Shown: in pieces, positions 1,473-25,414 of the stretch
How the letters are laid out: the number at the start of each line of letters is the position of its first letter
How positions within the stretch are numbered: position 1 is the first letter of the stretch
Assembly (NCBI GenBank): GCA_002050165.1
Contig: MWSW01000014.1
Location: 1 to 64,000 of the forward strand
Source: Candidatus Tepidiaquacellales bacterium OLB4/UTCHB1
GTDB taxonomy: Bacteria > Bacteroidota > Ignavibacteria > Tepidaquicellales > Tepidaquicellaceae
Direction: 5' to 3'
Length of the DNA: 64,000 bases
The notes under the pieces: model-generated
Told to the model about the DNA's origin: nothing
The model's database searches: none
Seen by the model: only the letters and a program-made list of their open reading frames with translations
Program-made: the position numbers and the translations under genes

Positions 1473-1542
1473 GACACCCTTTAAATCAAAAATCAGCGTT
1501 AAGATAAATACGGCTGAAAAGATGAGAGAAAAGCCCGCCCAC

Positions 1543-1605
1543 AAAAGGCACATTTGGTTTTTCTAAAACACAGCCCCTACCCTTCAAAAACCAAAAGAGC
1601 CTTTT
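1543..1605 (+). repeat. Two-stem hairpin element H1
   Basis: Outer stem AAAAGGC (1543-1549) pairs with GCCTTTT (1599-1605). Inner stem TTTGGTTTTT (1553-1562) pairs with AAAAACCAAA (1586-1595). ACA and AGA form a symmetric internal loop between them. Copies H2 (4047), H3 (17476) and H4 (25237) share the layout with different but compensating stem bases. H1 lies between the attC and the TPR gene. The remaining 1473-1745 stretch shows no gene, only this hairpin and a possible promoter. Confidence 0.7.
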
Positions 1606-1705
1606 TTTGCCAAAACAATATTTGTTAAAAACAATGAATTTAAGCTAATAGGACATTTCAGGATTTTACAAAACTTACTATACAAGCATTTCTTTTTAAA
1701 ATTTG

Positions 1706-1713
1706 TATTTTTG
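1706..1713 (+). promoter_or_regulatory. Possible promoter -7 element inside cassette 2
   Basis: TATTTTTG matches the TAnnTTTG -7 consensus of Bacteroidota-type promoters, 33 bp before the TPR start codon. I do not see a clear TTG at the usual -33 distance, so this is tentative. If real, the cassette carries its own promoter. Confidence 0.35.
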
Positions 1714-1745
1714 AACTTCACTAATAACTCAATGTATTAAACAAA

Positions 1746-2633
1746 ATGGCTGAGACAGATAAAGAACCCCATTCATTAATTCCCATAGGTAACAACCAAT
1801 TAAAAAAGGTTGAGAATGCCATTGCTATTACTGATAAGATTCTTTTGGGTGAAATTGAACAATTATTTAATAAGGCATTTTATTTGATTAATAGTAAAGA
1901 TTTGTCAGGCATTGAAGAAAACTATTGCTTGAAGCTCGCGTCCGATAAAGACTATTTAAAACGAAATCAATTTAAATATAGAGCAAAAGAAAAAGATGAC
2001 TATAAAAAAGCAATTATTTTATTTTCTAAGGTTTTAAAAACAAAACCTAAACATTATTTTTCATTCTACTTTAAAGGTGTTTCTAAAGGGAATCTAAAAG
2101 ATTACGAAGGAGCAATAAAAGACTACACAAAAGCCATTGAAATTGACCCCGATGATGCTTCTGCATATAACAACAGAGGAATTGCTAAAAGTGATCTAAA
2201 AGATTACGAAGGAGCCATAAAGGACTACACCAAAGCCATTGAAATTGACCCTGATGATGCTTCTGCATATAACAACAGAGGAATTGCTAAATGTAATCTA
2301 AAAGATTACGAAGGAGCAATAGAAGATTACACTAAAGCCATTGAAATTGACCCTGATTATGCTACTGCATATTACAACAGAGGACTTGCTAAAAGTGATC
2401 TAAAAGATTACGAAGGAGCAATAGAAGATTACACTAAAGCCATTGAAATTGACCCTGATTACGCTTTTGCATATAACAACAGAGGAATTGCTAAAAAGAA
2501 TCTAAAAGATTACAAAGGAGCAATAAAAGACTACACCAAAGCCATTGAAATTGACCCTGATTATACTACTGCATATAACAACAGAGAAATTGCGAAAAAT
2601 AATCTTAATGATTTGAGTGAGCTGCCTTTTTGA
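1746..2633 (+). CDS. Tetratricopeptide repeat protein
   Basis: A 295-residue protein with a non-repetitive N-terminus (about 105 residues) followed by TPR units. Five nearly identical 34-residue repeats (KDYEGAIKDYTKAIEIDPD..YNNRGIAK pattern) cover about residues 116-285, preceded by at least one more divergent unit. No signal peptide or membrane segment is evident, so it is probably a cytoplasmic protein-protein interaction scaffold. It is followed after 37 bp by the PLD/J-domain gene with no attC between, so the two may form a functional pair. The near identity of the repeat units at DNA level suggests recent expansion and likely copy-number variation. Confidence 0.85.
   Translation: MAETDKEPHSLIPIGNNQLKKVENAIAITDKILLGEIEQLFNKAFYLINSKDLSGIEENYCLKLASDKDYLKRNQFKYRAKEKDDYKKAIILFSKVLKTKPKHYFSFYFKGVSKGNLKDYEGAIKDYTKAIEIDPDDASAYNNRGIAKSDLKDYEGAIKDYTKAIEIDPDDASAYNNRGIAKCNLKDYEGAIEDYTKAIEIDPDYATAYYNRGLAKSDLKDYEGAIEDYTKAIEIDPDYAFAYNNRGIAKKNLKDYKGAIKDYTKAIEIDPDYTTAYNNREIAKNNLNDLSELPF
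2091..2600 (+). repeat. Five tandem 102-bp direct repeats encoding TPR units
   Basis: Units begin at 2091, 2193, 2295, 2397 and 2499 with the recurring AATCTAAAAGATTACGAAGG or GATCTAAAAGATTACGAAGG. A decayed sixth start is at 2601. Period 102 bp equals 34 codons, so any gain or loss of units stays in frame. Confidence 0.9.
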
Positions 2634-2670
2634 TAGGTTACAATTATAACCGACTTAAAAATGAAAAATA

Positions 2671-4044
2671 ATGCAAACAGAAGCTTATTTTGAAAATATA
2701 GCCCAAGAAATTCAAAACGCGATAGCCTCGGCACAGCATTCCATATATATTGCTGTGGCTTGGTTTACCCAAAAAGAAATTTTTGATCGATTAGTGGAGC
2801 AAGCCAAAGAAGATTGCAAAGTCTTGCTTATCATCTCTAATGATGAAATCAATCAAAATTCAGCTATTGATTATGAAAGGCTCAATATTCGGCAGTCTAA
2901 AGTTTTCAAAATTGGAGACGGTAAACAAGATTTAATGCATAACAAATTCTGCGTCATAGACAATCGTATCGTGATTACCGGTTCTTATAATTGGAGTTAT
3001 AAGGCCGAAAGTAATTATGAAAATATCACCATCACCAAAGATGATCAGGCATTAGCAAAGCAATTCATTGCCGAGTTTAATAATATTCGTAAAAAATATT
3101 TCCCGAATAAAATTGAGGAAGATGAAATCATTTTACCTTTAGAAAAGGTGACCAAACGGTTAGAGATTATTAAAAATTTCATTCTGTTGGAAGAAACGGA
3201 TGCTATTCATAATGTTGTTGAGAAATTGAAGAGATACCGGTTCAATGAAGCCATCAATGAGATTATAAATAAAGTGGAAACAAAAGATTATGCAACAGCA
3301 ATTGAGCATATCCAAAAATTTATATCGCAAAAACAGCAACTAACCACTTGGGAAGATCCCGAGATTGAAGTGCTTAAATTGGAAATTAAAAACCTTGAAA
3401 ATCAACTCAACAGCTACGACAATAAAAGAATTGAGTTGGAAAAGCTGTTAACAGATTTCAATCATCGTCACGCTCAAGAAGTAGGGGATTTAATTGTAGA
3501 AATATTGTCATTGAAAAAGTTGCTTTATAAAGATGATAAGGAAAAGTATGAAAAAGCAGAGCGAGATGAGAAGGAATATAAAAAGCAAGTGGAAAATGAA
3601 AGCAAAAAACAAATCTATGAATTAGACGAGCAAGAGCAACAAGATATCAAAAAGAAATTTAGAGAAGCCACTTTCTTTTGTCATCCGGATAAAGTTGCTG
3701 ATAAGTATAAGAAAGAAGCAAGCGAAACTTTCAATGAATTAAAAGCAGCCTATGATGCCAACGATATCAAGAAGGTGAATGAAATTTATGAAGAACTTAA
3801 AAACGGTAATTTCTACAAAACAAACTCTGAGACCGTAAACGAGAAAGCTGCCTTAAAATCAAGCATATCAAAATTAAAACGAAAAATAGAGCAACTAAAA
3901 ACAACAATTATTGAAATCAAGGAAAGCGACACCTATCAAAAGATTAAAGATATAGATGATTGGGACGAATATTTTACAAATTTAAAAGAGCAGTTAAGCG
4001 CAGAGTTGGAGCGTTTAAAAGAAGAATTGAATGTCCAATTCTAA
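2671..4044 (+). CDS. PLD-like protein with C-terminal coiled coil and J-domain-like segment
   Basis: 457 residues. The N-terminal 150 residues form a phospholipase D-like domain with one HKD motif (HNKFCVIDNRIVITGSYNWS, near residue 90), as in PLD-superfamily nucleases, which act as dimers when they hold one motif. The middle is helical and charged. Around residues 330-370, FREATFFCHPDKVADKY followed by FNELKAAYDA strongly resembles the HPD-containing J-domain of DnaJ co-chaperones. The last 80 residues are coiled coil. A nuclease tethered to Hsp70 is an inference. It follows the TPR gene closely and may share its transcript. No attC separates the two genes. Confidence 0.75.
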   Translation: MQTEAYFENIAQEIQNAIASAQHSIYIAVAWFTQKEIFDRLVEQAKEDCKVLLIISNDEINQNSAIDYERLNIRQSKVFKIGDGKQDLMHNKFCVIDNRIVITGSYNWSYKAESNYENITITKDDQALAKQFIAEFNNIRKKYFPNKIEEDEIILPLEKVTKRLEIIKNFILLEETDAIHNVVEKLKRYRFNEAINEIINKVETKDYATAIEHIQKFISQKQQLTTWEDPEIEVLKLEIKNLENQLNSYDNKRIELEKLLTDFNHRHAQEVGDLIVEILSLKKLLYKDDKEKYEKAERDEKEYKKQVENESKKQIYELDEQEQQDIKKKFREATFFCHPDKVADKYKKEASETFNELKAAYDANDIKKVNEIYEELKNGNFYKTNSETVNEKAALKSSISKLKRKIEQLKTTIIEIKESDTYQKIKDIDDWDEYFTNLKEQLSAELERLKEELNVQF

Positions 4045-4046
4045 GC

Positions 4047-4106
4047 CACACCCATTGCCAAGTCGCTCATTGCAAACACACAAACCAAAACTTGGCAAAG
4101 CGTGTG
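4047..4106 (+). repeat. Two-stem hairpin element H2
   Basis: Starts three bases after the stop of the PLD gene. Outer stem CACAC (4047-4051) with GTGTG (4102-4106), inner stem TTGCCAAG (4055-4062) with CTTGGCAA (4091-4098), internal loop CCA/AGC. This is the most divergent member of the H family; the downstream TTGCCTACGCA resembles the TTGCCAACGCA after H3. Confidence 0.6.
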
Positions 4107-4158
4107 TCTTGCCTACGCACAACCGACAGACAATCAACATGTAAGACAGAAGGGCAGC

Positions 4159-4291
4159 CCATAACAGCGGTTTGGCGTAATGGCGGGTTCAGTGCTTCGT
4201 ATGACAGTTTGGTGGTAGGTTCAAGTGCAGTTCTTCGATTGAACTTTTGTGCTATAAATCCGCCACTACGCCAAGCCGCAAAACGTTATGC
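4159..4291 (+). other. attC recombination site (site 2)
   Basis: R'' CCATAAC at 4159-4165, R' GTTATGC at 4285-4291, inner arms TTGGCGTA/TACGCCAA and TGGCGG/CCGCCA, and a TTCGATTGAAC centre. Unlike most sites, its R'' arm does not pair with the 5' end of its own cassette (GTTAGCGGACA at 1466), so the preceding cassette looks chimeric. Confidence 0.85.
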
Positions 4292-4343
4292 GTCAAGCTT
4301 AGGGACATCACTAAATTCAACAAACGAAAATTAAAACAATAAC

Positions 4344-5393
4344 ATGGGACTATTAAATCTTTTCAAAAAAAAGCGACCGTTGATTAAAGGTCAAGAGGAA
4401 AAAAATCCTTTTAATTATAAACTAGAACAAGGTCTTGACTGTGACGAAATTCCTAATTGCTATGGTGAATTTGGGAAGACACCAACAAATCCAATTCCAG
4501 TAAATGGCGGGACGGGAGAATTAATATACTTGAATAGTTTAAAAAACATAAATAATCAACCATTATTGTATCATCGGTTGACAATTACTCCTATTCAAGG
4601 ACTTGAAGAATATGTTGACATTTATGAAGTAGTTTCTGTTGATGGTAAACTTTGGGACATACTATATTTCCATATGTATCATCCAAGAAACTCAAATAAA
4701 CTTCCAAGTGGCTACCAATGGGTAAAGTATGATAAAATATGGAGCCACTCACCTATTGGATTAGGATTAAATAAGTTTCTGCCAGACTTTCCTTACAATA
4801 TGAGTGAGCCTTTAAAACAGTTTCAAGGGCTTTTAAATTTGGTAAGCGTTTATGAGAAACATACCAAAGGAAAGAATTTCATTAGACCACAAGAGCACTT
4901 AGAAAAAATAATCCATCTCAACAATAGAAATAATATTATTGGACCATTGGCACATTCAATTTCTATGAAATATCCAGTTCAATATTTTATCAACTTACTT
5001 CAAGCCTATGACAACGACACAAAAAGTTTTGCCTTATTCTGCCTGCAATTAAACAAAAAAAGCCTTACTGAAAATAATCTTGCATCTATTTGCAAATTTG
5101 CTTTTTTAAATGATGATTGGAAACTAAATGAAATTATAATTGAACTTGTGAACTACTTTGACAAAGAAAATACAGTGCAATCAATATTTGCTCCTTTAGT
5201 TGAATATCTAGATAAACATGATGCAAAAGGTTTAATATATGTCCTTAAAGTAGCTGAAGAAGATTTTATCAATGGACTTTCTTATAAGCTTATACCATTC
5301 TTATGGAAGTTAACAAAACACAATAATGCATCAGAAGAACTCATTGAAAAATGTAATTTGATTTCAGAAAAAATATTATTAACTATGGACTAA
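4344..5393 (+). CDS. Hypothetical cassette protein
   Basis: 349 residues, not recognised. It begins with a short basic stretch (MGLLNLFKKKRP). The N-terminal 150 residues are rich in aromatic and proline residues with predicted strands, and the C-terminal half is helical with Leu-rich segments suggestive of a HEAT-like solenoid (weak). No signal peptide or transmembrane helix is visible. It is the only gene in cassette 4286-5551. The ATG is 58 bp after the junction and the stop is 33 bp before the attC. Confidence 0.8.
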   Translation: MGLLNLFKKKRPLIKGQEEKNPFNYKLEQGLDCDEIPNCYGEFGKTPTNPIPVNGGTGELIYLNSLKNINNQPLLYHRLTITPIQGLEEYVDIYEVVSVDGKLWDILYFHMYHPRNSNKLPSGYQWVKYDKIWSHSPIGLGLNKFLPDFPYNMSEPLKQFQGLLNLVSVYEKHTKGKNFIRPQEHLEKIIHLNNRNNIIGPLAHSISMKYPVQYFINLLQAYDNDTKSFALFCLQLNKKSLTENNLASICKFAFLNDDWKLNEIIIELVNYFDKENTVQSIFAPLVEYLDKHDAKGLIYVLKVAEEDFINGLSYKLIPFLWKLTKHNNASEELIEKCNLISEKILLTMD

Positions 5394-5425
5394 ACGATTT
5401 GTATGCAAGATAAAGTAGCACGAAC

Positions 5426-5557
5426 GCATAACAAGGTATTTATGAAATGGGGGCTGACGTGCTACGTATCAACATTTGTGCAAGCCCAAATAGTTGTGCT
5501 TCGTATGAACCATTATGCTAATAATCCCCCACTTCATAAATACCCAAACCGTTATGC
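5426..5557 (+). other. attC recombination site (site 3)
   Basis: R'' GCATAAC (5426-5432) and R' GTTATGC (5551-5557). Inner arm GGTATTTATGAA pairs with TTCATAAATACC. The R'' arm with two upstream bases (ACGCATAAC) is the complement of this cassette's 5' end GTTATGCGT at 4285. Confidence 0.88.
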
Positions 5558-5580
5558 ACAATGCTAATAGACCGTAAACA

Positions 5581-6303
5581 ATGAAACAACCACACGACAA
5601 TTGGGCAACATTTTATGACTTTGCATATAACAAAACGTTTGGGCGTTTCTATCACGACCTGACAACAGAAACCTTAAATGCAATCAATGACATTTTACCA
5701 AATGGCTCAATCATTGACTTTGGTGCAGGGACAGGACGGCTTTCAATTCCATTAACCAAGCAAAATTATTCAGTTATCGCAGTGGAAAAAAGCAGTGGAA
5801 TGGTTGAACAATTTAAACAGAACCAACTTAAACACAACCTTGACATACAAATTCAAAATTGCTCAATCGCAGAATACGACAACGGAAAAGCCGATTTAGC
5901 GTTAGCTCTTTTTACAGTTTTGAGTTATTCAATAACCGAACAAGAACTTTCCGAAACGTTAAACAATATTTACAGACACATAAAACCGAACGGATATTTT
6001 TTCTTTGACTTACCCAATATGGTTTTCTTTAATGCAGGTCAGATAACGAATATACAAACTGAAAATTTTAATCGTTCGGTTAAACTAACTAAAAACCACG
6101 ATGATATTTTTACTTACAGAGAAACTTGTAACGGTATTTTCAACGGACAAGAGTTTGAATACCAAGACGAGTTTAAAATCAGATATTGGTCGCTTAATAC
6201 GCTAGACAATTTGTTACAAAACAATGGTTTTGTAGATACAGAAAAGGTGTTTAATCAATTCAACTCAACAGGTTCAACATACAAACTATATAAGAAGCAA
6301 TGA
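5581..6303 (+). CDS. Class I SAM-dependent methyltransferase
   Basis: 240 residues. SAM-binding motif I is visible as IIDFGAGTGRLS (about residues 44-55), followed by an acidic residue in VIAVEKSSG and a motif IV-like region ADLALALFTVLSY; the C-terminal half holds LNNIYRHIKPNGYFFFDLPN. This is the standard methyltransferase fold, but the substrate cannot be read from the sequence. The ATG is 29 bp inside the cassette junction. The stop overlaps the ATG of the next gene (ATGA), so the two are translationally coupled in a two-gene cassette. Confidence 0.85.
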   Translation: MKQPHDNWATFYDFAYNKTFGRFYHDLTTETLNAINDILPNGSIIDFGAGTGRLSIPLTKQNYSVIAVEKSSGMVEQFKQNQLKHNLDIQIQNCSIAEYDNGKADLALALFTVLSYSITEQELSETLNNIYRHIKPNGYFFFDLPNMVFFNAGQITNIQTENFNRSVKLTKNHDDIFTYRETCNGIFNGQEFEYQDEFKIRYWSLNTLDNLLQNNGFVDTEKVFNQFNSTGSTYKLYKKQ

Positions 6304-6971
6304 CAACATTTCAGATAAATCTATACAAAGGACACCCGATAATAAAAGACGGTGAAAACACAATGCTTATTGATACGGGAGCACCTTCTACTATCCACGT
6401 TGCAAACAATTTGTTTTTTTGCTCTGACAATTTCAGTTGTGTTACAAATTATATGGGCTTGACAGTTCAAAAAATATCAGAAATGTTGGGAACAGAAATA
6501 ACAACTTTAATTGGTGCCGACATTTTATCAAACTTCAAAATTCTGTTTGACTATAAAAACGAAGTTGTAGCTTTTAGTAAAGATGAAACAAACTCACCAA
6601 TGAATGAAACGACTATTTCGTCATTTATGGGTATTCCAATTATTGAATTAACAGTTGACAACCAAAAACTTAAATTCTTTTTGGACACAGGAGCAAAACT
6701 TTCTTATCTTGACAGCAAAATTACATCACAACATACGAGTATTGGAACAGACGAAGACTTTTATCCGGGCGTTGGAAAATTTGAAACGGAATGTTACGAA
6801 ATATTGACGAGTTTCGGGAACAAAGAATTTAATGTTAAGTATGGAAACTTGCCAAGTTTATTACAAATGACATTGATGTTAGGCGGAACGAATGGAATTA
6901 TAGGGTTTGATTTCTTTAATAATTTCAAAGTATGCCTTGACATTAAAAACGGAAAAATAAAATATGAATAA
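6300..6971 (+). CDS. Retropepsin-like aspartic protease domain protein
   Basis: 223 residues with two copies of an aspartyl-protease-type active-site motif: LIDTGAPSTIHV (about residue 23) and FFLDTGAKLSYLD (about residue 124), each followed by a hydrophobic/glycine strand (IGADILSNF; IGFDFFNNF). This arrangement fits a pepsin/retropepsin-like fold with two pseudo-symmetric lobes in one chain. No signal peptide is evident, so it may be cytoplasmic. It overlaps the methyltransferase stop by four bases and ends 10 bp before the attC. Function is unknown; protease activity is inferred from the motifs. Confidence 0.75.
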   Translation: MTTFQINLYKGHPIIKDGENTMLIDTGAPSTIHVANNLFFCSDNFSCVTNYMGLTVQKISEMLGTEITTLIGADILSNFKILFDYKNEVVAFSKDETNSPMNETTISSFMGIPIIELTVDNQKLKFFLDTGAKLSYLDSKITSQHTSIGTDEDFYPGVGKFETECYEILTSFGNKEFNVKYGNLPSLLQMTLMLGGTNGIIGFDFFNNFKVCLDIKNGKIKYE

Positions 6972-6980
6972 AAGCACTGT

Positions 6981-7113
6981 GCATAACAAGGTATTGCCAA
7001 AAGCGGGGCTGAACGACTTCGATTAAAAGATAGTGCAAAGTTAAACGATAGTAATTCTATTCAACATTTGTGCTAAAAGTCCGCTCCCTCGCCAATTTGC
7101 CAAACCGTTGGCG
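6981..7113 (+). other. attC recombination site (site 4)
   Basis: R'' GCATAAC (6981-6987), R' GTTGGCG (7107-7113). R'' and R' do not match each other here, but R'' with its upstream bases (AGCACTGTGCATAAC) pairs at 14 of 15 positions with the 5' end of its own cassette (GTTATGCACAATGCT at 5551). That is the signature of G^TT cassette junctions. Confidence 0.88.
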
Positions 7114-7171
7114 GTCAGTTTAGACAACACAACCCTTAACAGACATTAATAACAATACAAAAGCAAAAAAT

Positions 7172-7825
7172 ATGGAAAAGAAACATCAGGTGCATAACCT
7201 AATTATTTTAGACGAAAGCGGTTCGATGTCGTCTATAAAAAACACAATCATTCAAGGATTTAATGAGTTGGTGCAGACAATTCAGGGAATTGAAAAACAA
7301 TTTCCAGAACAAGAACATTTTGTTTCATTTGTTTCTTTCAATAGCTTAGGACAAAAATTACTTCACTTTATTGACCCAGCAAGTACCCTTAAACAAATAG
7401 ACGACAAAAGCTATAATCCTGATGCAATGACACCGTTATTTGATGCAATGGGTTTTAGTATAAACAAACTGAAAGAATCTTTACAAGGGCAAACTGACTA
7501 TAATGTTCTTGTAACAATATTGACAGACGGAGAAGAGAACAATTCAAAAGAATTTTCCGGTAGCGACATAAAAAAACTTGTTGAAGGACTAAAACAAAAT
7601 AGGTGGACATTTACCTACATCGGGACAGACCACGATGTAGAGAAAATTGCTTTATCTCTTTCTATTAATAACACTATGTTTTTTGCAAAAAGTGAGGCAG
7701 GTATAAAAGATATGTTTTTGAAAGAGCAAAGTGCAAGAGCAAAATACAGTAAAAAAATCCACTTCAACGAAGACACGTCATCAAATTATTTTGACGACAC
7801 GGAAGACGACAAGAATAAAAAGTAA
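7172..7825 (+). CDS. von Willebrand factor A (vWA) domain protein
   Basis: 217 residues forming a single vWA domain. The metal-binding MIDAS motif is LDESGSMSS (residues 14-22), with a later Thr in MTPLFDAMG and an Asp in LTDGEENNS. No signal peptide or membrane segment is seen, so it is intracellular; the acidic tail (SNYFDDTEDDKNKK) is disordered. Such proteins usually mediate metal-dependent protein contacts, and here it stands alone in cassette 7108-7960 without an AAA ATPase partner. Confidence 0.85.
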   Translation: MEKKHQVHNLIILDESGSMSSIKNTIIQGFNELVQTIQGIEKQFPEQEHFVSFVSFNSLGQKLLHFIDPASTLKQIDDKSYNPDAMTPLFDAMGFSINKLKESLQGQTDYNVLVTILTDGEENNSKEFSGSDIKKLVEGLKQNRWTFTYIGTDHDVEKIALSLSINNTMFFAKSEAGIKDMFLKEQSARAKYSKKIHFNEDTSSNYFDDTEDDKNKK

Positions 7826-15995: not shown

Positions 15996-17267
15996 ATGAC
16001 AAATGAAACAAAAATTAACTGTCCTAACTGCGGACAAGAAATAGACGTTAACAACGTAATTGCTCACCAGCTTGACGAGGAATACAAGAAAAAATACAAC
16101 GCACAATTTTCAGCAGAGAAAAAGAAATTTCAGGACGAGTTTGACAAACTTGAAAAACAAAAACAGGAATTAGAGAAGCAAAAATCAGAGCAAGAGAAAC
16201 TAATTGCCGAGAAAGTTAGCAATCAAATAAAAAGTGAGAGAACTTCAATAGAAAAGGAACTTAAATCCAAAATTGAAAGTGAGCAAACTGAACGAATTGA
16301 ACTTATAGAAAGAGAACTCAAAGAAAAATCCGAGCAGGTAAAGGAATTAAACAGGACTAAAGCAGAGATTGAAAAAATCAAACGGGAAAAGGAAGAGTTG
16401 AAGGAGAGTTTGGAGGCAGAAAACGCTAAAAAACTCAATCAACAAATTGCAGAGGAAAAAGAACGAATAAGGAAAATTGAGCAGGACAAAAACGAGTTAA
16501 TTGTAAAAGAACTACAAAAACAACTTGAAGACCAGAAAAAGCTAACTGAAGAAATGAAGCGCAAGCAAGAGCAAGGCTCTATGCAACTTCAAGGTGAGGT
16601 TCAGGAATTAGGTATTGAAGAATGGTTATCAGACAACTTCCCATTTGACACCATTACTGAAATAAAAAAAGGTGAAAGAGGTGCAGACTGTTTGCAAACC
16701 GTTCACACAAGAACAAGACAGAATTGTGGAACAATTTACTATGAGAGTAAACGAACAAAGGACTTTAAAAACAATTGGCTTGAAAAATTCAGAGACGACA
16801 TTCGTGAGAAAGGAGCTAACATCGGAGTTCTCGTAACTGATGTATTTCCAAAAGGAATGGAAAGAATGGGACTCGTGGAAGGAATTTGGGTTTGCTCATA
16901 TGACGAATTTAAAGGGCTGTGTGTTGTTCTACGAGAGAGCATAATTCAGCTAAGTTCTGTGGTGTCTGCACAAGAGAATAAAGGTGAAAAAATGGTTATG
17001 CTATATGACTTTTTGACAAGTAATGAATTCCGACTACAAGTAGAAGCGATAGTTGAGGGCTTTACACAAATGCAGACAGACCTAAACTCAGAAAAGCGTT
17101 CAATTATGGGACACTGGAAAAAGAGAGAAAAACAAATTCAAAAAGTTCTCCTTAACACTAATCATATGTATAACTCCATAAAAGGTATTGCTGGTTCTGC
17201 AATTCAACCAATTAAGACACTTGAGTTACCGGAGACGACAACAGATGAACTTGAAGATGGAGAGTAG
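15996..17267 (+). CDS. DUF2130 family protein, predicted PD-(D/E)XK nuclease-like
   Basis: 423 residues, by coincidence the same length as the protein at 51-1322. It has the N-terminal CPNCGQEIDVNNVIAHQL motif, then a long Lys/Glu/Gln coiled coil (about residues 30-200). The globular domain reads EEWLSDNFPFDTITEIKKG, ERGADCLQTV and GTIYYESKRTKDF, giving a D...ExK-type core. The C-terminus is helical. The ATG is 29 bp inside the cassette junction and the stop 9 bp before R''. The globular domain is clearly diverged from the other copy, so the two look like separately acquired members rather than a recent duplication. Confidence 0.82.
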   Translation: MTNETKINCPNCGQEIDVNNVIAHQLDEEYKKKYNAQFSAEKKKFQDEFDKLEKQKQELEKQKSEQEKLIAEKVSNQIKSERTSIEKELKSKIESEQTERIELIERELKEKSEQVKELNRTKAEIEKIKREKEELKESLEAENAKKLNQQIAEEKERIRKIEQDKNELIVKELQKQLEDQKKLTEEMKRKQEQGSMQLQGEVQELGIEEWLSDNFPFDTITEIKKGERGADCLQTVHTRTRQNCGTIYYESKRTKDFKNNWLEKFRDDIREKGANIGVLVTDVFPKGMERMGLVEGIWVCSYDEFKGLCVVLRESIIQLSSVVSAQENKGEKMVMLYDFLTSNEFRLQVEAIVEGFTQMQTDLNSEKRSIMGHWKKREKQIQKVLLNTNHMYNSIKGIAGSAIQPIKTLELPETTTDELEDGE

Positions 17268-17276
17268 AAAAACTGG

Positions 17277-17409: not shown

Positions 17410-17475
17410 GTCACCCTAAAAAAACAACGACAGTGAACAACAACGAACATATAAAGACAGAAGACGCCACCGCAC

Positions 17476-17543
17476 AAACGGCACATTTGGCTTTGCTCCA
17501 ACCGCACAAACCAACCCAAAAGGCAAAGCCAAAAGAGCCGTTT
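17476..17543 (+). repeat. Two-stem hairpin element H3
   Basis: Outer stem AAACGGC (17476-17482) with GCCGTTT (17537-17543). Inner stem TTTGGCTTTGC (17486-17496) with GCAAAGCCAAA (17523-17533). Internal loop ACA/AGA, then TTGCCAACGCA. It lies 30 bp before the DUF3800 start. The remaining bases from 17410 to 17572 show no gene. Confidence 0.75.
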
Positions 17544-17572
17544 CTTGCCAACGCACTAATTAAGATTACGAC

Positions 17573-18388
17573 ATGAAGTTTTGTTACATTGATGAAAGCG
17601 GAACTGGTGACGAACCAATAGCAGTGATGGTTGGAATTTTAACTGACCACCACAGAATGAATCCAACAAAAAGTGATTGGAGAGCTTTACTTAATACACT
17701 CACAGAAGCAGTTGGAAAACCTGTAACAGAAATTCACACGAAAGACCTATACGCAGGAAACAGCCCATTCAGACAACTAACGCCTGAACAACGGTCAAAC
17801 CTCATTGGACAAATTTTTCAATGGCTTAGAGACCGCAAACACTCAATCGTTTTTACTGCCGTTGACAAAGCTAACTTAGCAGCAAACCGAGACAGCGAAG
17901 CATTTCATGCTGACCTTGGAACGCTATGGAGACACATGGCTTTTCATGTAACGCTGGCTTTACAAAAACACGGACAAACCTTTAAGAAAAACAAGGGTAA
18001 CACGGTTCTGATTTTTGACAATAAAGTAACCGACCAAAGAAGTTTTACAAAGCTTTTATTGAATCCACCTACTTGGTCAGACACCTATTACGGAAGGAAG
18101 AAAAAACAAGAACAACTCGACCAGATTGTAGATGTTCCGCACTTTGTGGACAGTAAAGAAGTGGCATTAATTCAGTTGGCTGATTTTTTATGCTATTTTC
18201 TATGCAAACACATTGAACTCTCATTAGGACTAACAGCACCAAAGTTTGATGGAGAAATGGATGTTATACAAGGATATGCTGATGCCACTTTAAAACTGGC
18301 TATCCCAAAATCAAACATATTTTTGAACCGTGGAAGGTGTCCAGCATCTGATTATTTTTACAGATATGCACCAACTCCAATAAGATAA
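17573..18388 (+). CDS. DUF3800 domain protein
   Basis: 271 residues. The N-terminal MKFCYIDESGTGDEPIAVMV is the hallmark DxS start of DUF3800, followed by FTAVDKANLA, VLIFDNKVTDQRSF and ALIQLADFLCYFLCKHIELS, giving the expected conserved acidic residues. DUF3800 proteins have an RNase H-like fold and are frequent in defence islands; a nuclease role is inferred. It is the first gene of the restriction-modification interval, with the Mod gene starting 33 bp downstream, so co-transcription is likely. Confidence 0.85.
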   Translation: MKFCYIDESGTGDEPIAVMVGILTDHHRMNPTKSDWRALLNTLTEAVGKPVTEIHTKDLYAGNSPFRQLTPEQRSNLIGQIFQWLRDRKHSIVFTAVDKANLAANRDSEAFHADLGTLWRHMAFHVTLALQKHGQTFKKNKGNTVLIFDNKVTDQRSFTKLLLNPPTWSDTYYGRKKKQEQLDQIVDVPHFVDSKEVALIQLADFLCYFLCKHIELSLGLTAPKFDGEMDVIQGYADATLKLAIPKSNIFLNRGRCPASDYFYRYAPTPIR

Positions 18389-18421
18389 ACCGAATAACAA
18401 ATAAGAATTATAAATTCAGGC

Positions 18422-20956
18422 ATGGCAAAAGGAAGAAAAACAACAAAGAAACCAACTACTCAAAAACCCATTGAGCAATACGAACATAAAGACAAGCAAC
18501 GTGTAAACAACCCACCTGTTGGATTAGTAGATGCACACACCGATCCCGAAAGTATCGGGAGTGGTTTTAAAAAGAAAACCTACCAATACGACCCACACCT
18601 TGACCCACAATTGCAATGGGCAGGTAAAGCCGAACACACCAGTTTTGATGTGCCGACAGTAAGCTTGCATGTGCATGAACGCATTGACCCTAGACGCATT
18701 ATTGAAACCGTAAAAAAGGAAGAAGAAGCCCCCACGCAAATGAGTTTGTTTGAAGAACAAAAGAAACCATTGCGTGAAGCCATTGAATTTTACAAGCACA
18801 AAGAGAACTGGAGCAACCGGCTGATTGCAGGTGACAGCCTGTTGGTAATGAACAGCCTCTTGGAAAAAGAAGGCATGGGTGGTAAGGTGCAGATGGTGTA
18901 TTTCGACCCGCCTTATGGTATTAAATACGGCAGCAATTTTCAGCCCTTTGTAAACAAGCGGGATGTGAAAGACGGCAAAGACGAAGACCTAACCGCAGAA
19001 CCCGAAATGGTGAAAGCGTTCAGAGATACCTGGGAATTAGGTATACATTCATATTTAACCTATTTGAGGGACAGGGTTAAGCTTTCAAGGGATTTGCTCC
19101 ATGAAACAGGAAGCATAGTCATTCAAATTAGTGATGAAAATTTACCTTATGTGCGTTTAGTCTTAAACGAGATTTTTGGTGAAGCAAATTTTGTAAGCCA
19201 AATCAGTTTTAAAACTTCTCCTGGCGACACAACAAAATATCTTCCACCATGCTTAGATTATTTGATTTGGTATGCCAAAGACAAATCAAAATTAAAGTTC
19301 AGAAAATTGTTTCTCGAGAAAATTGCAGGTGAAGCACAAGGTTCAAGTTTTGATTGGATTGAGCTTGCAGATGGAACATGCCGTGCATTGACAAAGACGG
19401 AAAAAAATAATAGTTCTACTTTGCCAAAAGGGAAATTATTTAGATGGGCAGACCCTAGAAGGAAAGGAACAGCAGAGTCTGCTCAATTTCCTTATTTATT
19501 CAATGGGGAGGAATTTACACCAGGGGCGAGTATGACATGGAAAACTACAAGCCAAGGTTTGGACCGTTTAAAAGGGCAAAATCGATTAGGTAAGAAAGGA
19601 AGCCAATTAAATTATAAAAGATATCTTGACGATTTCCCAGCAACTGAACTACTCAATGTTTGGACTGATACCATGAATTCTTTTATGCAAAGAAGCTATG
19701 TAGTAGAAACAAACCCACTTGTAGTAGAAAGATGCGTTCTTATGACATCTGACCCTTCAGACATTATATTGGATATTACTTGCGGTAGTGGAACGACAGC
19801 GTTTGTGGCTGAAAAACTTGGTCGTAGATGGATTACTTGTGATACATCAAGAGTGTCATTAACATTAGCAAAAAAAAGATTGATGACTTCAGTCTTTGAC
19901 TACTATGAATTAGCTTATCCAAATGAAGGTGTTGGAAGCGGATTTAAATATCAAACGATACCTCATATATCCTTAAAAACAATTGCGAATGGGGAGCCAC
20001 CCACACCTGAAACACTTTATGATAGACCTAAAACTGATAAGTCTAAACTTAGGGTAACAGGCCCATTTACAATTGAAGCTGTTCCTGCACCTGTTGCCAA
20101 ATCATTTGAAGACGTAGAAGCAGACACGCAATTTGATGCGGACACATCTGTTTCAAGAAGCGGTGAAACCTTGCGACAAGATGAATGGAGAAATGAATTA
20201 CTCCGTGCAGGTGTGAGAGCTAAAGGCGGTAAACTGATTGAATTTACAAGAGTAGAACCATTAAGCGGAACACGGTTTTTACAAGCAGAAGCAGAAACGA
20301 AAGAAGCCAATCCGAAACGGGTAGTCGTTTGTTTTGGTCCTGAACATGCCCCATTGGAACAACGCATGGTAGAACTGGCTTTAGAAGAAGCAAGAACTCT
20401 AAAGCCAAAACCTGAAATTATATTGTTCTGTGCTTTTCATTTCGATTCAGAAGCAAGAAAAGACATTGAAGAAACCAACTGGCCGGGCATTACGCTTTTA
20501 GAAGCCCAAATGAATGCCGACTTGCTGACAGACGATTTAAAAAAGAAACGCAGCAGCAATGAAAGTTTTTGGCTGATTGGACAGCCCGATGTGCGAATCA
20601 CAGAAATCAAATCGGGAGACGACAAAGGCAAATACACGGTTGAAGTAAACGGCTTTGATTATTACAACCCCAAAACCGGAACGGTGGACAGTGGTGGCAA
20701 AGGCGATATTGCCATGTGGATGCTCGACCATGATTATGATGGTAGAAGTTTGTTTCCTTCACAGGTATTTTTCCCCATGGCAGGAGCTAAAGAAGGTTGG
20801 GCGACCTTAGCCAAAAACCTGAAAGCCGAAATTAACGAAGAAAAAATAGAAGCCTTTGGCGGAACGGTTTCACTTCCCTTCAAAGCAGGAAAAAATGTGG
20901 CAGTGAAAATTATTGACGCAAGAGGAATTGAAAGTTTAAAAATTATCCGTTTGTGA
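18422..20956 (+). CDS. mod: Type III restriction-modification methyltransferase subunit (Mod)
   Basis: 844 residues. Catalytic motif IV is VYFDPPYGIKYGSNFQP (about residue 160) and the SAM-binding motif I comes after it as LDITCGSGTTAFVAEKLGRRW (about residue 450), the beta-class order of type III N6-adenine methyltransferases. The region between (about 200-440) is the likely target-recognition part. It is longer than typical Mod (about 600-650 residues); the C-terminal 300 residues, including VVCFGPEHAPLEQRMVE, are the extra part seen in Mod proteins paired with large Res subunits. It methylates DNA and specifies the recognition sequence for Res. A short palindrome at 18544 lies in its coding sequence. 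Confidence 0.93.
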   Translation: MAKGRKTTKKPTTQKPIEQYEHKDKQRVNNPPVGLVDAHTDPESIGSGFKKKTYQYDPHLDPQLQWAGKAEHTSFDVPTVSLHVHERIDPRRIIETVKKEEEAPTQMSLFEEQKKPLREAIEFYKHKENWSNRLIAGDSLLVMNSLLEKEGMGGKVQMVYFDPPYGIKYGSNFQPFVNKRDVKDGKDEDLTAEPEMVKAFRDTWELGIHSYLTYLRDRVKLSRDLLHETGSIVIQISDENLPYVRLVLNEIFGEANFVSQISFKTSPGDTTKYLPPCLDYLIWYAKDKSKLKFRKLFLEKIAGEAQGSSFDWIELADGTCRALTKTEKNNSSTLPKGKLFRWADPRRKGTAESAQFPYLFNGEEFTPGASMTWKTTSQGLDRLKGQNRLGKKGSQLNYKRYLDDFPATELLNVWTDTMNSFMQRSYVVETNPLVVERCVLMTSDPSDIILDITCGSGTTAFVAEKLGRRWITCDTSRVSLTLAKKRLMTSVFDYYELAYPNEGVGSGFKYQTIPHISLKTIANGEPPTPETLYDRPKTDKSKLRVTGPFTIEAVPAPVAKSFEDVEADTQFDADTSVSRSGETLRQDEWRNELLRAGVRAKGGKLIEFTRVEPLSGTRFLQAEAETKEANPKRVVVCFGPEHAPLEQRMVELALEEARTLKPKPEIILFCAFHFDSEARKDIEETNWPGITLLEAQMNADLLTDDLKKKRSSNESFWLIGQPDVRITEIKSGDDKGKYTVEVNGFDYYNPKTGTVDSGGKGDIAMWMLDHDYDGRSLFPSQVFFPMAGAKEGWATLAKNLKAEINEEKIEAFGGTVSLPFKAGKNVAVKIIDARGIESLKIIRL
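18544..18560 (+). repeat. Short palindrome within mod
   Basis: TCCCGA and TCGGGA flank the 5-base centre AAGTA. It lies in frame within the codons for PESIGSG near Mod residue 43. The TCCCGA...TCGGGA type recurs as short palindromic repeats in Bacteroidota genomes (from general knowledge), so it may be an inserted palindromic unit in a disordered linker. Confidence 0.55.
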
Positions 20957-21021
20957 TATGAAGAAAAACAAAATTGACCACTGGATTAATTATGGCGAAT
21001 CCGCCACAATTAGAAATTCTT

Positions 21022-21043
21022 ATTACCCCGAATTCGGGGTAAT
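21022..21043 (+). repeat. Perfect 22-bp palindrome upstream of the KilA-N gene
   Basis: Positions 21022-21043 are fully self-complementary around the centre GAATTC, with CCCC and GGGG arms. It lies in the short mod/KilA-N gap, where an unannotated 45-codon frame (20958-21095) also runs. It could be an operator, a hairpin or a short palindromic repeat. Confidence 0.7.
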
Positions 21044-21081
21044 TAACAGCATCGAGTTCGATGCCTTTAATAATTATTCTC

Positions 21082-21909
21082 ATGGCAAAAAATAAAACCA
21101 TCAATGTTAAAGGAACTGAAATAGTTGTTATCAGCTCACATGAAAGAGATTTCATTTCCATTACTGACATTGCCCGGCACAAGGACAGCATACATACAGA
21201 TTCCATTATTCAGAATTGGATGAGAAATCGCAATACTATTGAGTTGCTTGGGTTCTGGGAAATGCTTTACAACCCCGATTTTAAACCCCTCGAATTCGAG
21301 GGGTTTAGAAAACAGGCAGGGCTGAATAGTTTTGTAATGACCCCAAAGAAATGGATTGAAACCACAAATGCAGTTGGCATTATATCCAAGCCTGGAAGAT
21401 ACGGTGGCACATTTGCTCACAGGGATATTGCTTTGGAATTTGCATCATGGATATCCATTGAGTTCAAATTATTTCTTCTCAAAGAATTTCAACGACTAAA
21501 AAATGATGAAAATGACCGGCTGAAATTAGAATGGAATCTTCAACGCATTTTGGCGAAAGTTAATTACCACATTCACACGGATGCTATCAAAGAACATTTG
21601 ATTCCAAAAACATTATCAAAGGAAAAAATAAATTTTGTATATGCAGACGAAGCTGATATGTTAAACATGGCTTTGTTCGGAATGACAGCAAAACAATGGA
21701 GAGAAGCTAATCCGAAAGCAGAAGGGAACATTCGTGATGCAGCTACGATTGAACAGTTGGTTGTTCTTTCAAACATGGAAAGCATCAATGCCGTTTTAAT
21801 TCATCAGGGTTTGAAGCAAAGTGAACGATTGCAGCAACTGAACGGCATTGCCATCACTCAAATGAAATCGCTTGTCAGCAACTCACAAATCCGCAAATTG
21901 AAAAAGTAG
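21082..21909 (+). CDS. KilA-N domain protein
   Basis: 275 residues from the ATG at 21082, preferred to the upstream in-frame ATG at 21061 because the family resemblance starts there. The KilA-N domain covers about residues 20-125: FISITDIARHKDSIHTDSII, NWMRNRNTIELLGFW, TPKKWIETTNAVGI and HRDIALEFASWIS. It is a DNA-binding domain common in phage and mobile-element proteins. The C-terminal half is helical (KQWREANPKAEGNIRDAATIEQL). It lies between mod and res, 4 bp from res, in the position where accessory genes of type III systems often sit; a regulatory or specificity role is an inference. A perfect 26-bp palindrome lies inside it. Confidence 0.88.
   Translation: MAKNKTINVKGTEIVVISSHERDFISITDIARHKDSIHTDSIIQNWMRNRNTIELLGFWEMLYNPDFKPLEFEGFRKQAGLNSFVMTPKKWIETTNAVGIISKPGRYGGTFAHRDIALEFASWISIEFKLFLLKEFQRLKNDENDRLKLEWNLQRILAKVNYHIHTDAIKEHLIPKTLSKEKINFVYADEADMLNMALFGMTAKQWREANPKAEGNIRDAATIEQLVVLSNMESINAVLIHQGLKQSERLQQLNGIAITQMKSLVSNSQIRKLKK
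21282..21307 (+). repeat. Perfect 26-bp palindrome inside the KilA-N gene
   Basis: Positions 21282-21307 are fully self-complementary around GAATTC with CCCCTC and GAGGGG arms. It encodes the in-frame residues KPLEFEGF between two conserved blocks of the KilA-N domain. Its likeness to the palindrome at 21022 (same centre, related arms) suggests a mobile palindromic unit that has inserted in frame. Confidence 0.7.
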
Positions 21910-21912
21910 CTG

Positions 21913-24900
21913 ATGAATAAAATTGACAAACTTATTATCAATTCTCCCTACGAAGAACCCCAACAGTTTTGGGAATACTTTCGTGACACAAGAGAATTTA
22001 AACTTCAAAGGGGAAGGCGACCGGCAGGATATGTGGTGGCTTCCGAAAGTTCAAAATCATTTGACGACCCGGGCACATTCATAGAAATTGATTTGGTAAA
22101 TACCATTCGCCTAAGAATTAAAAAATGGCGTGAAGATGGTTATCCCGGAGTTACAGGCATTACCAAGCGGCTTTTGCAACATTGGCAAGACCCTGAAGAA
22201 CGTAAAGACCGTAGGTTTTTCTTTTGTCAATTAGAAGCCATTGAAACATTAATTTGGTTAACCGAAGCACCCGAAGCAGATAAAACAGGAATAGAAATTC
22301 CGGGCGATGGTGGTGAGTTCAGCCGTTGGTGCAATAAAATGGCAACAGGTTCGGGTAAAACCATTGTAATGGCTCAACTCATTGCATGGAATGTATTAAA
22401 CAAAATTGCCAACGGAAAAGACACTCGATTTTCAAAAAATGTATTGATAGTTGCACCGGGTTTAACGGTTCGGAATCGTCTTTCGGTTCTCAATCCAACT
22501 GACCCTGAAAACTATTATGAGGAGTTCAACATTGTGCCTGCGGGTTTAATGGACTCATTGCGACAAGGAAAAATTAAAATCATCAACTGGCATGGTTTGG
22601 CATGGCAAACAGAAGAAAAGATTGCCAAGAAAAAATCGGTTGATAAACGTGGAGCAAAAAGCGATGAAGCCTATGTAAGAGAAGTATTGGGCGACATGGC
22701 AAATGCTTCAAACATCATCGTGATAAATGACGAAGCACACCACGCTTGGCGTATTCCGGCAGAGAGCAAAATAAAAGGCGTTAAGAAAGAAGATATTGAA
22801 GAAAGCACCGTTTGGGTTGGCGGACTTGACCGCATTCACAGAGCAAGAGGAATTTTACGTTGTTTCGATTTATCGGCAACTCCGTTTGCACCAAGCGGAA
22901 AAAAAGCAAGTGAAGAAGCCCTGTTTCCCTGGATTGTTTCTGATTTTGGTTTGAATGATGCCATTGAAGCGGGTTTGGTAAAAACACCAAGAGTTGTAGT
23001 TCGTGATGATGGAAATGTAGACAAGGATTTACGTTCACGTTTGTATCACATCTATATGGACGAAACGGTGAAAGACGACATCAACCAAAAGGTGGATGAA
23101 TCCGTTCCGCTTCCTGACTTGATTAAAAACGCCTATTTACTTTTAGGCAAAGACTGGAAAGCAACCAAAGACGATTGGGAGAAAGCAGGTTACAAGATAC
23201 CACCTGTAATGATTACGGTTGCCAATACTACATTTACATCAGGAAGAATAAAATACTCTTTTGACAAAGATGCTTTCAATCTTTCCGTTGCAGGTTTGGG
23301 TGATTTGTGCAATCCTGAAAGGACTTTACAGATAGACAGTAAAATTCTTCAAAGTGCAGAAGCGGAAACAGAAGAAGTTGAAATTGCAGAAGTAGAAGAA
23401 ACCGAAGATGATACGGAAGATGCACCAAAAGAAAAAAAACTAACCAAAAAACAACAAGCGGAACTTTTAAGAAGAACGGTTGACACTGTTGGAAAAATCG
23501 GAGAACCCGGAGAACAGATTCAGAATGTAATTTCTGTAGGAATGCTCAGCGAAGGTTGGGATGCAAAAACCGTAACGCATATAATGGGTTTACGGGCATT
23601 CAGCAGCCAATTGTTGTGTGAGCAAGTTGTAGGTAGAGGTTTGCGGAGAACTTCCTATGATGTAGGCGAAGATGGTTTATTTGAACCTGAATATGTAAAC
23701 ATTTTCGGTGTTCCGTTTACTTTCTTACCACATGAAGGCGGACAAGACGGCCCGCCACCACCGCCACCAAAACCAAAAACTGAAATAAAACCTGTAAAGG
23801 AAAAAGCAGAGCATGAAATCAGTTTCCCGAATGTGGTGCGAATTGACCACATCTATAAACCACAATTGACGTTGAATTTGGGGAAAGTGAAATCATTGGA
23901 ACTTGACCCATACGATTCAATAACAGAAGCGGAATTGGCTGCGATTATTGCAGGAAAACCAAATCCTGCGGCACTTTCTGAAATTGACCTGAAAGAAATT
24001 GCAGAGAAATTCAGACTACAATCCATCATTTTCAGAATTGCATCAACCATTTACAATTCCGAGAAGAAACCTGACTGGAAAGGAAGCAAAGAAACATTCC
24101 TGATTCAACTCATTAGTATTATTGAGAAGTTTATCTACTCAAACAAAATCGTTATTAAAAATCCTTTGTTCAATCAGGACGAATCAAGGAAACGAATTTT
24201 GATAATGCTGAACATGAATAAAGTTGTTCAGCACATTTGGAACGAAATAAGAGCAGTTAATACAGAAGCATTAACACCGGTATTCGACAAAGAGAATCCA
24301 ATCCGTTCATCAGGCGACATCAGAACATGGTGGACAAGCAAACCCAATGAAGCGTTTGACAAAACACATATCAACTTTGTTGTGGTGGACAGTAAATGGG
24401 AATACCTGGAAGCCAAAACAATCAATGAATCAAATGTTGTAGAATCGTTCGTTAAAAACGACCATTTGAATTTCGTGATTTACTACAACTACCAAGGTGT
24501 AGTAAGACGATTTTTCCCTGACTTTCTCATCAAACTGACAACAGGCGAAAACCTAATTGTAGAAACCAAAGGACAAGACAACGAACAGAACAAAACCAAA
24601 AGAGCATATCTTGACGAATGGTGCAGAGCAATCAATCAGCATGGAGGTTTTGGAAAATGGAGTTGGGCAGTTTCATTTGACCCTAACGACCTTGACCAGA
24701 TATTGCAAAATTCAGCATTGCGTTTTAGCGGACACATTTTTGCAGACACAGACGATTACAATGTTGCCGAAAAGATATTTGATGCAACAATCAACTTCTT
24801 TGAAACAGCAGGTTTTGAAATTTCAGAAGAAGGAAGAATAAAACAAGGTTCTTGGTTCAAAGAGAAAGTTGTTTATAAAATCAGAAACGTTTTCAGAAGC

Positions 24901-25227
24901 AAAGAAGCCAAAGAAATTTTCGACAAGACAAAGAAAGCGATTGAACTTCAACAAATAGAAGTGCATCAATCACAAGCGAACAAGAACAACGCAGAAGCAG
25001 CAGCAGTTTTGTTGACAGCGGTTAAAGACGTTCCATTTTTTGCAACAAAAATGGGTTCGTTAGTTATAATCAAGACAACCGACCAAAACGGAAAAGAGCA
25101 AGTAATCACAAGACTTTTGACAACCGAGGAAACTATTTTTTACGACCGAAATCCTGCATTGCTGAACAACCCAATAGAATTATTAAACAGCTTAAACAAT
25201 GGAGACGACAAGAAACGACTGAATTAG
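21913..25227 (+). CDS. res: Type III restriction enzyme Res subunit (helicase-nuclease)
   Basis: 1104 residues. SF2 helicase motifs: Walker A in KMATGSGKTIVMAQLIAWN (about residue 145), DEAH in IIVINDEAHHAW (about 273), SAT in FDLSATPFAPSG, and motifs V/VI in SEGWDAKTVTHIMGL followed by CEQVVGRGLRR (about 575). The C-terminal endonuclease domain has the PD-(D/E)XK core RFFPDFLIKLTTGENLIVET then KGQ (about residues 865-885). It forms the restriction complex with Mod, using ATP to communicate between head-to-head sites before cutting. Its start lies 4 bp after the KilA-N stop, and its stop codon touches the H4 element. All key motifs are intact. Confidence 0.95.
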   Translation: MNKIDKLIINSPYEEPQQFWEYFRDTREFKLQRGRRPAGYVVASESSKSFDDPGTFIEIDLVNTIRLRIKKWREDGYPGVTGITKRLLQHWQDPEERKDRRFFFCQLEAIETLIWLTEAPEADKTGIEIPGDGGEFSRWCNKMATGSGKTIVMAQLIAWNVLNKIANGKDTRFSKNVLIVAPGLTVRNRLSVLNPTDPENYYEEFNIVPAGLMDSLRQGKIKIINWHGLAWQTEEKIAKKKSVDKRGAKSDEAYVREVLGDMANASNIIVINDEAHHAWRIPAESKIKGVKKEDIEESTVWVGGLDRIHRARGILRCFDLSATPFAPSGKKASEEALFPWIVSDFGLNDAIEAGLVKTPRVVVRDDGNVDKDLRSRLYHIYMDETVKDDINQKVDESVPLPDLIKNAYLLLGKDWKATKDDWEKAGYKIPPVMITVANTTFTSGRIKYSFDKDAFNLSVAGLGDLCNPERTLQIDSKILQSAEAETEEVEIAEVEETEDDTEDAPKEKKLTKKQQAELLRRTVDTVGKIGEPGEQIQNVISVGMLSEGWDAKTVTHIMGLRAFSSQLLCEQVVGRGLRRTSYDVGEDGLFEPEYVNIFGVPFTFLPHEGGQDGPPPPPPKPKTEIKPVKEKAEHEISFPNVVRIDHIYKPQLTLNLGKVKSLELDPYDSITEAELAAIIAGKPNPAALSEIDLKEIAEKFRLQSIIFRIASTIYNSEKKPDWKGSKETFLIQLISIIEKFIYSNKIVIKNPLFNQDESRKRILIMLNMNKVVQHIWNEIRAVNTEALTPVFDKENPIRSSGDIRTWWTSKPNEAFDKTHINFVVVDSKWEYLEAKTINESNVVESFVKNDHLNFVIYYNYQGVVRRFFPDFLIKLTTGENLIVETKGQDNEQNKTKRAYLDEWCRAINQHGGFGKWSWAVSFDPNDLDQILQNSALRFSGHIFADTDDYNVAEKIFDATINFFETAGFEISEEGRIKQGSWFKEKVVYKIRNVFRSKEAKEIFDKTKKAIELQQIEVHQSQANKNNAEAAAVLLTAVKDVPFFATKMGSLVIIKTTDQNGKEQVITRLLTTEETIFYDRNPALLNNPIELLNSLNNGDDKKRLN

Positions 25228-25236
25228 CCAACGCAT

Positions 25237-25302
25237 TTGGTGGCACATTTGCAAAACCTCACAAGCCAACGCTAAAGCCAAGTTTTGCAAAAGAGCCACC
25301 AA
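25237..25302 (+). repeat. Two-stem hairpin element H4
   Basis: Outer stem TTGGTGGC (25237-25244) with GCCACCAA (25295-25302). Inner stem TTTGCAAAAC (25248-25257) with GTTTTGCAAA (25282-25291). Internal loop ACA/AGA. The 9-base motif GCCAACGCA flanks it directly on both sides (25227-25235 and 25303-25311), and GCCAACGC occurs again in the loop. It begins at the res stop codon. From 25312 to 25414 no gene is seen. Confidence 0.75.
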
Positions 25303-25414
25303 GCCAACGCAAGAGAAAAAGAAATTTAAAAAAATGCCCCATCGCACGACAAAAGACAATGAAAATCGTAGCATCAAATAGACCGACAAACCACTACAGA
25401 CAAGGAAGCACTGG

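Follow-up and report, generated by a model that had tools for sequence, protein, structure and literature searches.

Integrons are reported to store antiphage genes (PMC12444791), and that article cites Darracq 2025, Getz 2025 and Kieffer 2025 (its references 91-93) for antiphage genes carried in integrons. Several other described systems come close to the locus analyzed here. In bNACHT25 and the bacterial NLR-related proteins, recognition is kept apart from the killing domain, and DnaJ mediates phage sensing by bNACHT25 (PMC12169576). The NTP-dependent conflict systems of Kaur et al. 2020 (PMC7159879) join a conserved signaling and effector core to variable modules, including TPRs and propellers. 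Modules like TerY-P, a triad of VWA, PP2C phosphatase and kinase genes, have been reported to be antiphage (PMC11090510). Among nucleases, the nearest relatives are Nuc of S. typhimurium (1byr) and NucT of H. pylori (6ehi), which are small stand-alone proteins of the phospholipase D (PLD) fold with an HKD site.

The two-gene unit described below lies in a 64,000-nt stretch of DNA (the window) and consists of a partner gene followed by an effector gene in which a PLD domain is fused to a J-like segment (PLD-J). Its effector shares the fold and the HKD site with Nuc and NucT, at approximately 25% identity, but adds a long helical part, the J-like part and a paired sensor gene. As proposed here, recognition would be separate from killing and a J protein would take part in sensing, as in bNACHT25; however, the window pair has no NTPase, and the J-like part resides within the effector itself. 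Variable TPR and propeller modules combined with a constant core are likewise found in the systems of Kaur et al., whereas the window pair has no STAND, MoxR or GTPase core and PLD is not mentioned in that study. VWA, PP2C and kinase genes directly follow PLD-J in six relatives, and at one locus (L068) they adjoin a short PLD-less coil-J protein; most relatives, like the window pair, lack such a set, and a motif-bearing sensor gene occupies that slot. Finally, two enterobacterial proteins annotated as "DnaJ family molecular chaperone" (WP_001033457 and WP_023307022), encoded on plasmids of Salmonella and Enterobacter, are homologous to the whole C-terminal 300 residues of the effector, including KRLEIIK and CHPD, although they lack a PLD domain and, in both records, a partner with the motif is absent from the adjoining genes.

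The elements are known singly, and what appears to be new is the combination of a PLD-J effector, a constant motif, the wholesale exchange of folds and an integron cassette. No earlier description of this combination was found in the open-license literature, which is weak evidence of absence. Our preferred reading, to which we assign a probability of roughly 0.6, is that the unit represents a modular sensor-effector defense system carried as an integron cassette.

Organization of the two-gene unit

The features of the two genes are as follows.

1746-2633, + strand: partner (sensor) gene, 295 aa, with an N-terminal motif and five TPRs
1767-1856, + strand: conserved N-terminal motif PHSLIPIGNNQLKKVENAIAITDKILLGEI, codons 8-37 (HMM E 3.1e-13, training member)
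2083-2613, + strand: 102-bp tandem repeat encoding the TPR array, 5.2 copies, 90% matches
2671-4044, + strand: effector gene, 457 aa; PLD, conserved helical region, J-like segment and C-terminal helices
2671-3120, + strand: PLD nuclease domain of the Nuc/NucT type with a single HKD site (H90, K92, D97); PLDc_2, 1.2e-23
3142-3570, + strand: conserved helical region beginning TKRLEIIK, residues ~158-300, also present in PLD-less DnaJ-type proteins
3631-3804, + strand: J-like segment with CHPD at residues 337-340 (residues ~321-378; assigned by profile, conservation and model)

The effector ORF starts 37 nt past the end of the TPR ORF on the same strand. The preliminary description of this DNA had reported a PLD domain, a helical region and a J-like HPD segment fused in one protein beside a TPR protein, and both ORFs and this domain order are confirmed by our analysis. 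That picture was incomplete, as it included neither the N-terminal motif of the partner nor the integron cassette setting.

The effector combines a PLD nuclease domain with a J-like segment

The N-terminal part of the effector matched PLDc_2 in Pfam at residues 16-139 (1.2e-23). The three residues of its HxKxxxxD site, H90, K92 and D97, were invariant in all 63 aligned full-length PLD-J relatives, as were G104, N107, E117 and the pair C337-H338. In a comparison of the AlphaFold2 model (alignment of 63 sequences, mean pLDDT 85.9, pTM 0.48) with solved structures, the nearest folds to the PLD domain were those of Nuc (Z 20.2) and NucT (Z 19.5), and 141 residues were superimposed on Nuc 1byr with an rmsd of 2.1, as for a single-domain Nuc fold. 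The sequence and the model suggest that the domain is a Nuc-type PLD nuclease; the effector would then be expected to cleave nucleic acids and, by analogy with Nuc, is probably active as a dimer.

The linker that had been called a coiled coil in the preliminary description is indeed long and helical, and it includes the conserved region at residues ~158-300, which occurs outside PLD fusions in the enterobacterial DnaJ-type proteins. In the following segment, a match to DnaJ was obtained at residues 321-362 (3.1e-5), slightly below the Pfam cut-off. A profile built from 49 relatives of the segment and searched against the PDB identified the J-domains of DnaJ and auxilin with E 3e-7 to 2e-6 and with the HPD aligned. 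The HPD was intact in 60 of the 63 full-length relatives, the exceptions being HPN in L128 and HED in L130 and L131. Since the profile finds the J-domains of DnaJ and auxilin and the HPD is retained in nearly all relatives, the assignment does not reflect a chance HPD.

When the piece was modeled alone with AlphaFold2 (pLDDT 74.7), a helix (23-40), the HPD loop and two further helices (47-65 and 69-81) were obtained, an order corresponding to helices II, III and IV, and no counterpart of helix I was present in the AlphaFold2 models. A fold search with the same piece was dominated by generic three-helix bundles, and J-domains were not at the top. The earlier proposal to judge the reading by whether the HPD region folds as a J-domain therefore had a mixed outcome, with support from the sequence profile and no distinct J-domain match from the fold search. 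Because the HPD and its two flanking helices are present, while helix I is not seen and J-domains do not lead the fold search, the segment, as far as profile and model indicate, is J-like and not a textbook J domain. This part may couple to DnaK, which it would be predicted to recruit. The absence of a modeled helix I and the loss of the HPD in three relatives imply that the contact with DnaK may be missing in part of the family. The cysteine that precedes the HPD (C337, window 3679-3681) was found in 63 of 63 relatives; we know of no constraint on this position in canonical J-domains.

A conserved motif marks the partner gene

The window partner contains five TPRs (TPR_1, 1.8e-56, Pfam), encoded by a tandem DNA repeat of a kind that also occurs in many partner genes at other loci. 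Its N-terminus carries a motif of ~27-30 residues with the consensus NNSLIPIGxxxLvRVxNSIxITxKLL, which is common to partners of unrelated fold. An HMM of the motif was trained on 24 partners located upstream of PLD-J only, and run on all ORFs of the fetched loci. At a threshold of E<=0.01 it gave 56 matches, each of which shared the strand of a PLD-J gene and was located within 2.2 kb of it. Adjacent matches numbered 46, with a median gap of 3 nt, and 19 of these were located downstream and are therefore independent of the training set, which held upstream partners only. An adjacent HMM match was present at 34 of the 58 informative loci; most of the others had a motif gene farther away, a VWA gene, or a gene in the partner position that was recognized by eye, and no partner gene was found at three of the 58 (L089, L110 and L126). 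A homotypic copy of the motif in the effector was not detected, as no PLD-J ORF was among the HMM matches up to E 1. One further candidate, a short coil-J protein beside a Fib_succ_major and TPR protein (L030), looked alike by eye and was set aside, the motif HMM being unsupportive.

The window genome contains a single significant copy of the motif, at the PLD-J locus, and the HMM gave no match in 58 relatives. Among 345 genomes sampled from the phylum, a significant motif was present in three, exactly those with PLD-J. The other four matches in this sample were chance-like: those in G617 and G061 lay inside unrelated proteins, and those in G201 and G614 in frames of 44 and 24 residues. We also considered the motif as a general adaptor of the Bacteroidota, and rejected this on account of its absence from the 58 relatives and of the unconvincing stray matches. 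As judged from its conservation, the short motif most likely serves to dock the sensor on the effector.

Partner folds are exchanged behind the motif

The remainder of the partner differs from locus to locus. According to Pfam, the motif is followed by TPRs in the window and L129, WD40 repeats in L075 and L077, a PQQ/ACSF4 propeller in L091, a GyrA C-terminal propeller in L065, leucine-rich repeats (LRR) in L083, L074, L098, L146 and L107, Fib_succ_major in L078, WG repeats in L111, an FGE-sulfatase domain in L118, and, in L105, Prim-Pol together with a weak match to an exonuclease; a VWA domain occupies the partner slot in L130 and L142. The partners of L096 (W-rich repeats), L116 and L149 had no Pfam match. 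In L065, L074, L129, L130 and L142 the motif was too diverged for the HMM, and these partners were assigned by position and by eye. To our knowledge, no role in phage recognition has been ascribed to FGE-sulfatase, Fib_succ_major or WG domains.

The exchange was also evident between close effectors. For pairs of effectors at least 72% identical, the C-termini of the partners gave no blastp match in 41 of 52 cases. The effectors of L075 and L080 are 95% identical, and their partners are a WD40 and a Fib_succ_major protein, respectively. At the DNA level, the 97% identity of these two loci spans the kinase gene upstream and the partner up to codon ~33; beyond this point the sequences are unrelated, until similarity resumes in the effector (93% identical). 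Across 44 loci, motif identity was correlated with effector identity (Mantel rho 0.23, 0/1000 permutations), as expected if both were inherited together while the rest was exchanged, although shared descent alone could also suffice.

Other folds were equally common, and the TPR protein was rejected as the fixed partner. The TPR scaffold emphasized in the preliminary description is real, but at least ten folds, the TPR among them, are interchangeable in the partner; the constant part is the N-terminal motif. Two further features vary among the loci. The recognition part is a Prim-Pol domain in L105, L108 and L143, with an extra gene behind it in L105 and L108, and a Ser/Thr kinase gene stands first in the cassette, before the partner, in L075 (5583-6962), L076, L079 and L080; the latter gene is missing in the window.

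The unit is an integron cassette

The two genes are located in an array of integron-type cassettes with the following borders.

1339-1473, + strand: attC at the end of the upstream DUF2130 cassette, forming the left border of the unit (covariance model R1, 99.8 bits, E 2.7e-21, training member)
4158-4293, + strand: attC closing the two-gene cassette; right border (R1, 131.9 bits, E 3.8e-29, training member)
1339-25550, + strand: integron-type cassette array, with attC sites at 1339, 4158, 5425, 6980, 7834, 8965, 17276 and 25414

The covariance model R1 was trained on six sites of the window together with three loci. It recovered all eight attC sites of the window, of which those at 17276 and 25414 were outside the training set, and sites at or near PLD-J in L075, L076, L077, L080, L096, L097, L103, L105 and L146 (three of them trained on); no R1 site was found in 27 control regions. 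Both border sites are imperfect palindromes with a GTT-type core. Since the pair is flanked by these attC sites, it constitutes one two-gene cassette (~1473-4293).

In the window genome as a whole, 16 attC sites were located at the starts of contigs C1 and C6, on C15 and, in one case, on C8. The attC-bearing parts of this genome comprise C6 (1-8000), C15 and the start of C1, which are probably pieces of a single array of ~40 kb. No match to the IntI integrase above the TIGR02249 cut-off was obtained in this draft assembly of 19 contigs, and a decayed tyrosine recombinase adjoins the attC sites on C6. The array may be without a working integrase, or the integrase may be missing from the draft assembly.

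Three loci from a Paludibacter MAG (L075), a Bacteroidetes MAG (L076) and the cultured Lunatimonas salinarum (L079) have a 3.87-kb unit in common at 97-98% DNA identity, and the flanks are unrelated among the loci. The unit begins with GTTATAAGCC, ends with GGCTTATAAC and is then followed by an attC-like palindrome, in place of which L079 has a group II intron sequence (E 4.3e-6, slightly under the Rfam gathering score). Palindromes of the same type stand behind the genes in the window. These near-identical units of ~3.9 kb have evidently moved between orders.

Toxin-antitoxin cassettes stabilize integron arrays, and an addiction module of this kind, in which the partner uses its motif to keep a PLD-J toxin silent and loss of the unit kills the cell, would suit the integron setting, the tight spacing within a two-gene cassette and the mobile, patchy distribution. 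However, a plain antitoxin has no need for swapping of large folds, such as that seen in the 41 of 52 close effector pairs with unrelated partner C-termini, and VWA-PP2C-kinase signaling genes take the place of the partner at some loci. We therefore regard an addiction module as unlikely.

Other cassettes of the window array were also inspected. Between attC sites, the region 17411-25414 encodes a DUF3800 protein, a KilA-N protein (PDC-S22), and a methyltransferase and a restriction-like protein, both of type III; it is a single integron cassette of ~8 kb holding a complete restriction-modification (R-M) system. Two DUF2130 proteins (51-1322 and 15996-17267), both of 423 aa but with little similarity in sequence (29% over 111 residues), are each directly followed by an attC. 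Neighboring cassettes contain an aspartyl-protease-like protein and a VWA protein (6300-6971 and 7172-7825).

Distribution of the PLD-J fusion

Searches of the IMG/VR and GTDB species genome collections were performed with a two-sequence alignment as the query; scans of genome and viral collections with the single protein gave no matches. Approximately 70 PLD-J relatives were recovered, mostly from the Bacteroidota and with a patchy distribution, and of the 80 loci taken from GTDB species genomes, ~70 carried the fusion. Outside the Bacteroidota, it was present in records from Actinobacillus minor, Psychrobacter, Desulfobulbaceae, Anaerolineaceae and Lloydbacteria; some of the records are MAGs, and a binning error is therefore possible for some of the taxon assignments. 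In the phylum sample, the fusion was rare and patchy, being found in three of the 345 genomes: that of the window, G540 and G507. In G507 the fusion was read from two separate parts of the gene at contig ends, next to a transposase gene. A PLD-J protein at 48% identity was encoded on an IMG/VR contig (L074), where PLD-J and its LRR partner (4675-7356) are located beside lysozyme-like genes; this copy of the system is probably carried by a prophage.

The distribution also bears on whether the unit serves in stress response or protein quality control, with the J-like part acting with DnaK on TPR, WD40 or LRR clients and the PLD domain acting on lipid or nucleic acid in repair. Such a role would agree with retention of the J-like HPD in 60 of 63 relatives and with the PLD-less occurrence of the C-terminal region in enterobacterial DnaJ-type proteins. 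A module that is this rare and patchy, moves as a cassette and has its partners swapped wholesale does not follow a housekeeping pattern, and this explanation appears quite improbable.

Defense context

The array in the window also holds a type IV Mrr enzyme and the type III R-M cassette. Among 120 neighbors of PLD-J genes there were matches to pAgo, AbiEii, a CBASS-type phospholipase and a number of R-M and candidate defense families; 120 control proteins from other genomes, a small sample, gave one type I specificity subunit and mads matches only. Analysis with the PADLOC catalogue returned no specific system, only generic matches of the DrmC and TPR type. In the six relatives with TerY-P-type genes (L130-L133, L142 and L145), the genes after PLD-J encode VWA, PP2C-like, kinase-like and membrane proteins, the VWA being assigned by Pfam and the PP2C-like and kinase-like genes being read by eye. 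No VWA, PP2C or kinase gene was detected among the ORFs of the window cassette by Pfam.

In a further alternative, the unit would act like a restriction system, attacking DNA as it enters and leaving the cell alive, and the sensor would serve as the specificity subunit, directed at DNA or at proteins bound to it. This reading would fit the PLD fold that the effector shares with the restriction nucleases BfiI and SauUSI, the Prim-Pol domain or GyrA-C propeller of some partners and the R-M genes among the neighbors, but the unit has no methyltransferase or helicase and the partner folds are mostly of protein-binding types, which makes it very unlikely.

Proposed mechanism

Returning to the modular sensor-effector defense system, we consider it highly likely that the two proteins form a sensor-effector pair in some biological conflict, and probable, if with less assurance, that the function is phage defense. 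The unit most likely represents an undescribed bacterial immune system, and of the roles suggested in the preliminary description, that of an immune effector is the best-supported reading.

In the resting state, the motif of the sensor would be docked on the helical and J-like regulatory part of the effector, and the two proteins would be held together with the nuclease silent. The trigger could be an encounter of the recognition domain with a phage or plasmid product, or alternatively an infection-altered state of the chaperones, relayed by DnaK and the J part. A rearrangement of the complex would follow, the PLD domains would pair and nucleic acid would be cleaved, with the result that the invader is stopped or the cell killed. 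In some lineages, a VWA protein accompanied by PP2C and kinase genes fills the sensor slot, or a kinase gene is added.

By analogy, an immune receptor split into a constant docking end and an exchangeable recognition domain would be antibody-like. More tentatively, the family might constitute a new class of immune receptor, in which a constant dock of ~30 residues is joined to an exchangeable recognition domain, the J-like part monitors DnaK and the combinations are reshuffled as cassettes. If the sensor-effector reading holds, the unit would be a compact natural case in which one killing enzyme is re-targeted by swapping the whole detector while a short constant plug is kept. This would provide a testable code of which fold sees what and tie integrons to modular immunity, and it raises the question of why a nuclease should have a J-like part in which the cysteine preceding the HPD is invariant. 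The motif would also be a simple diagnostic for sensors now annotated as "TPR protein", "WD40 protein" or "hypothetical".

PLD proteins of a shorter type occur at two of the loci (L152 and L154); these are ~188 aa long, have no J part and are located between two genes read by eye as kinase-like.
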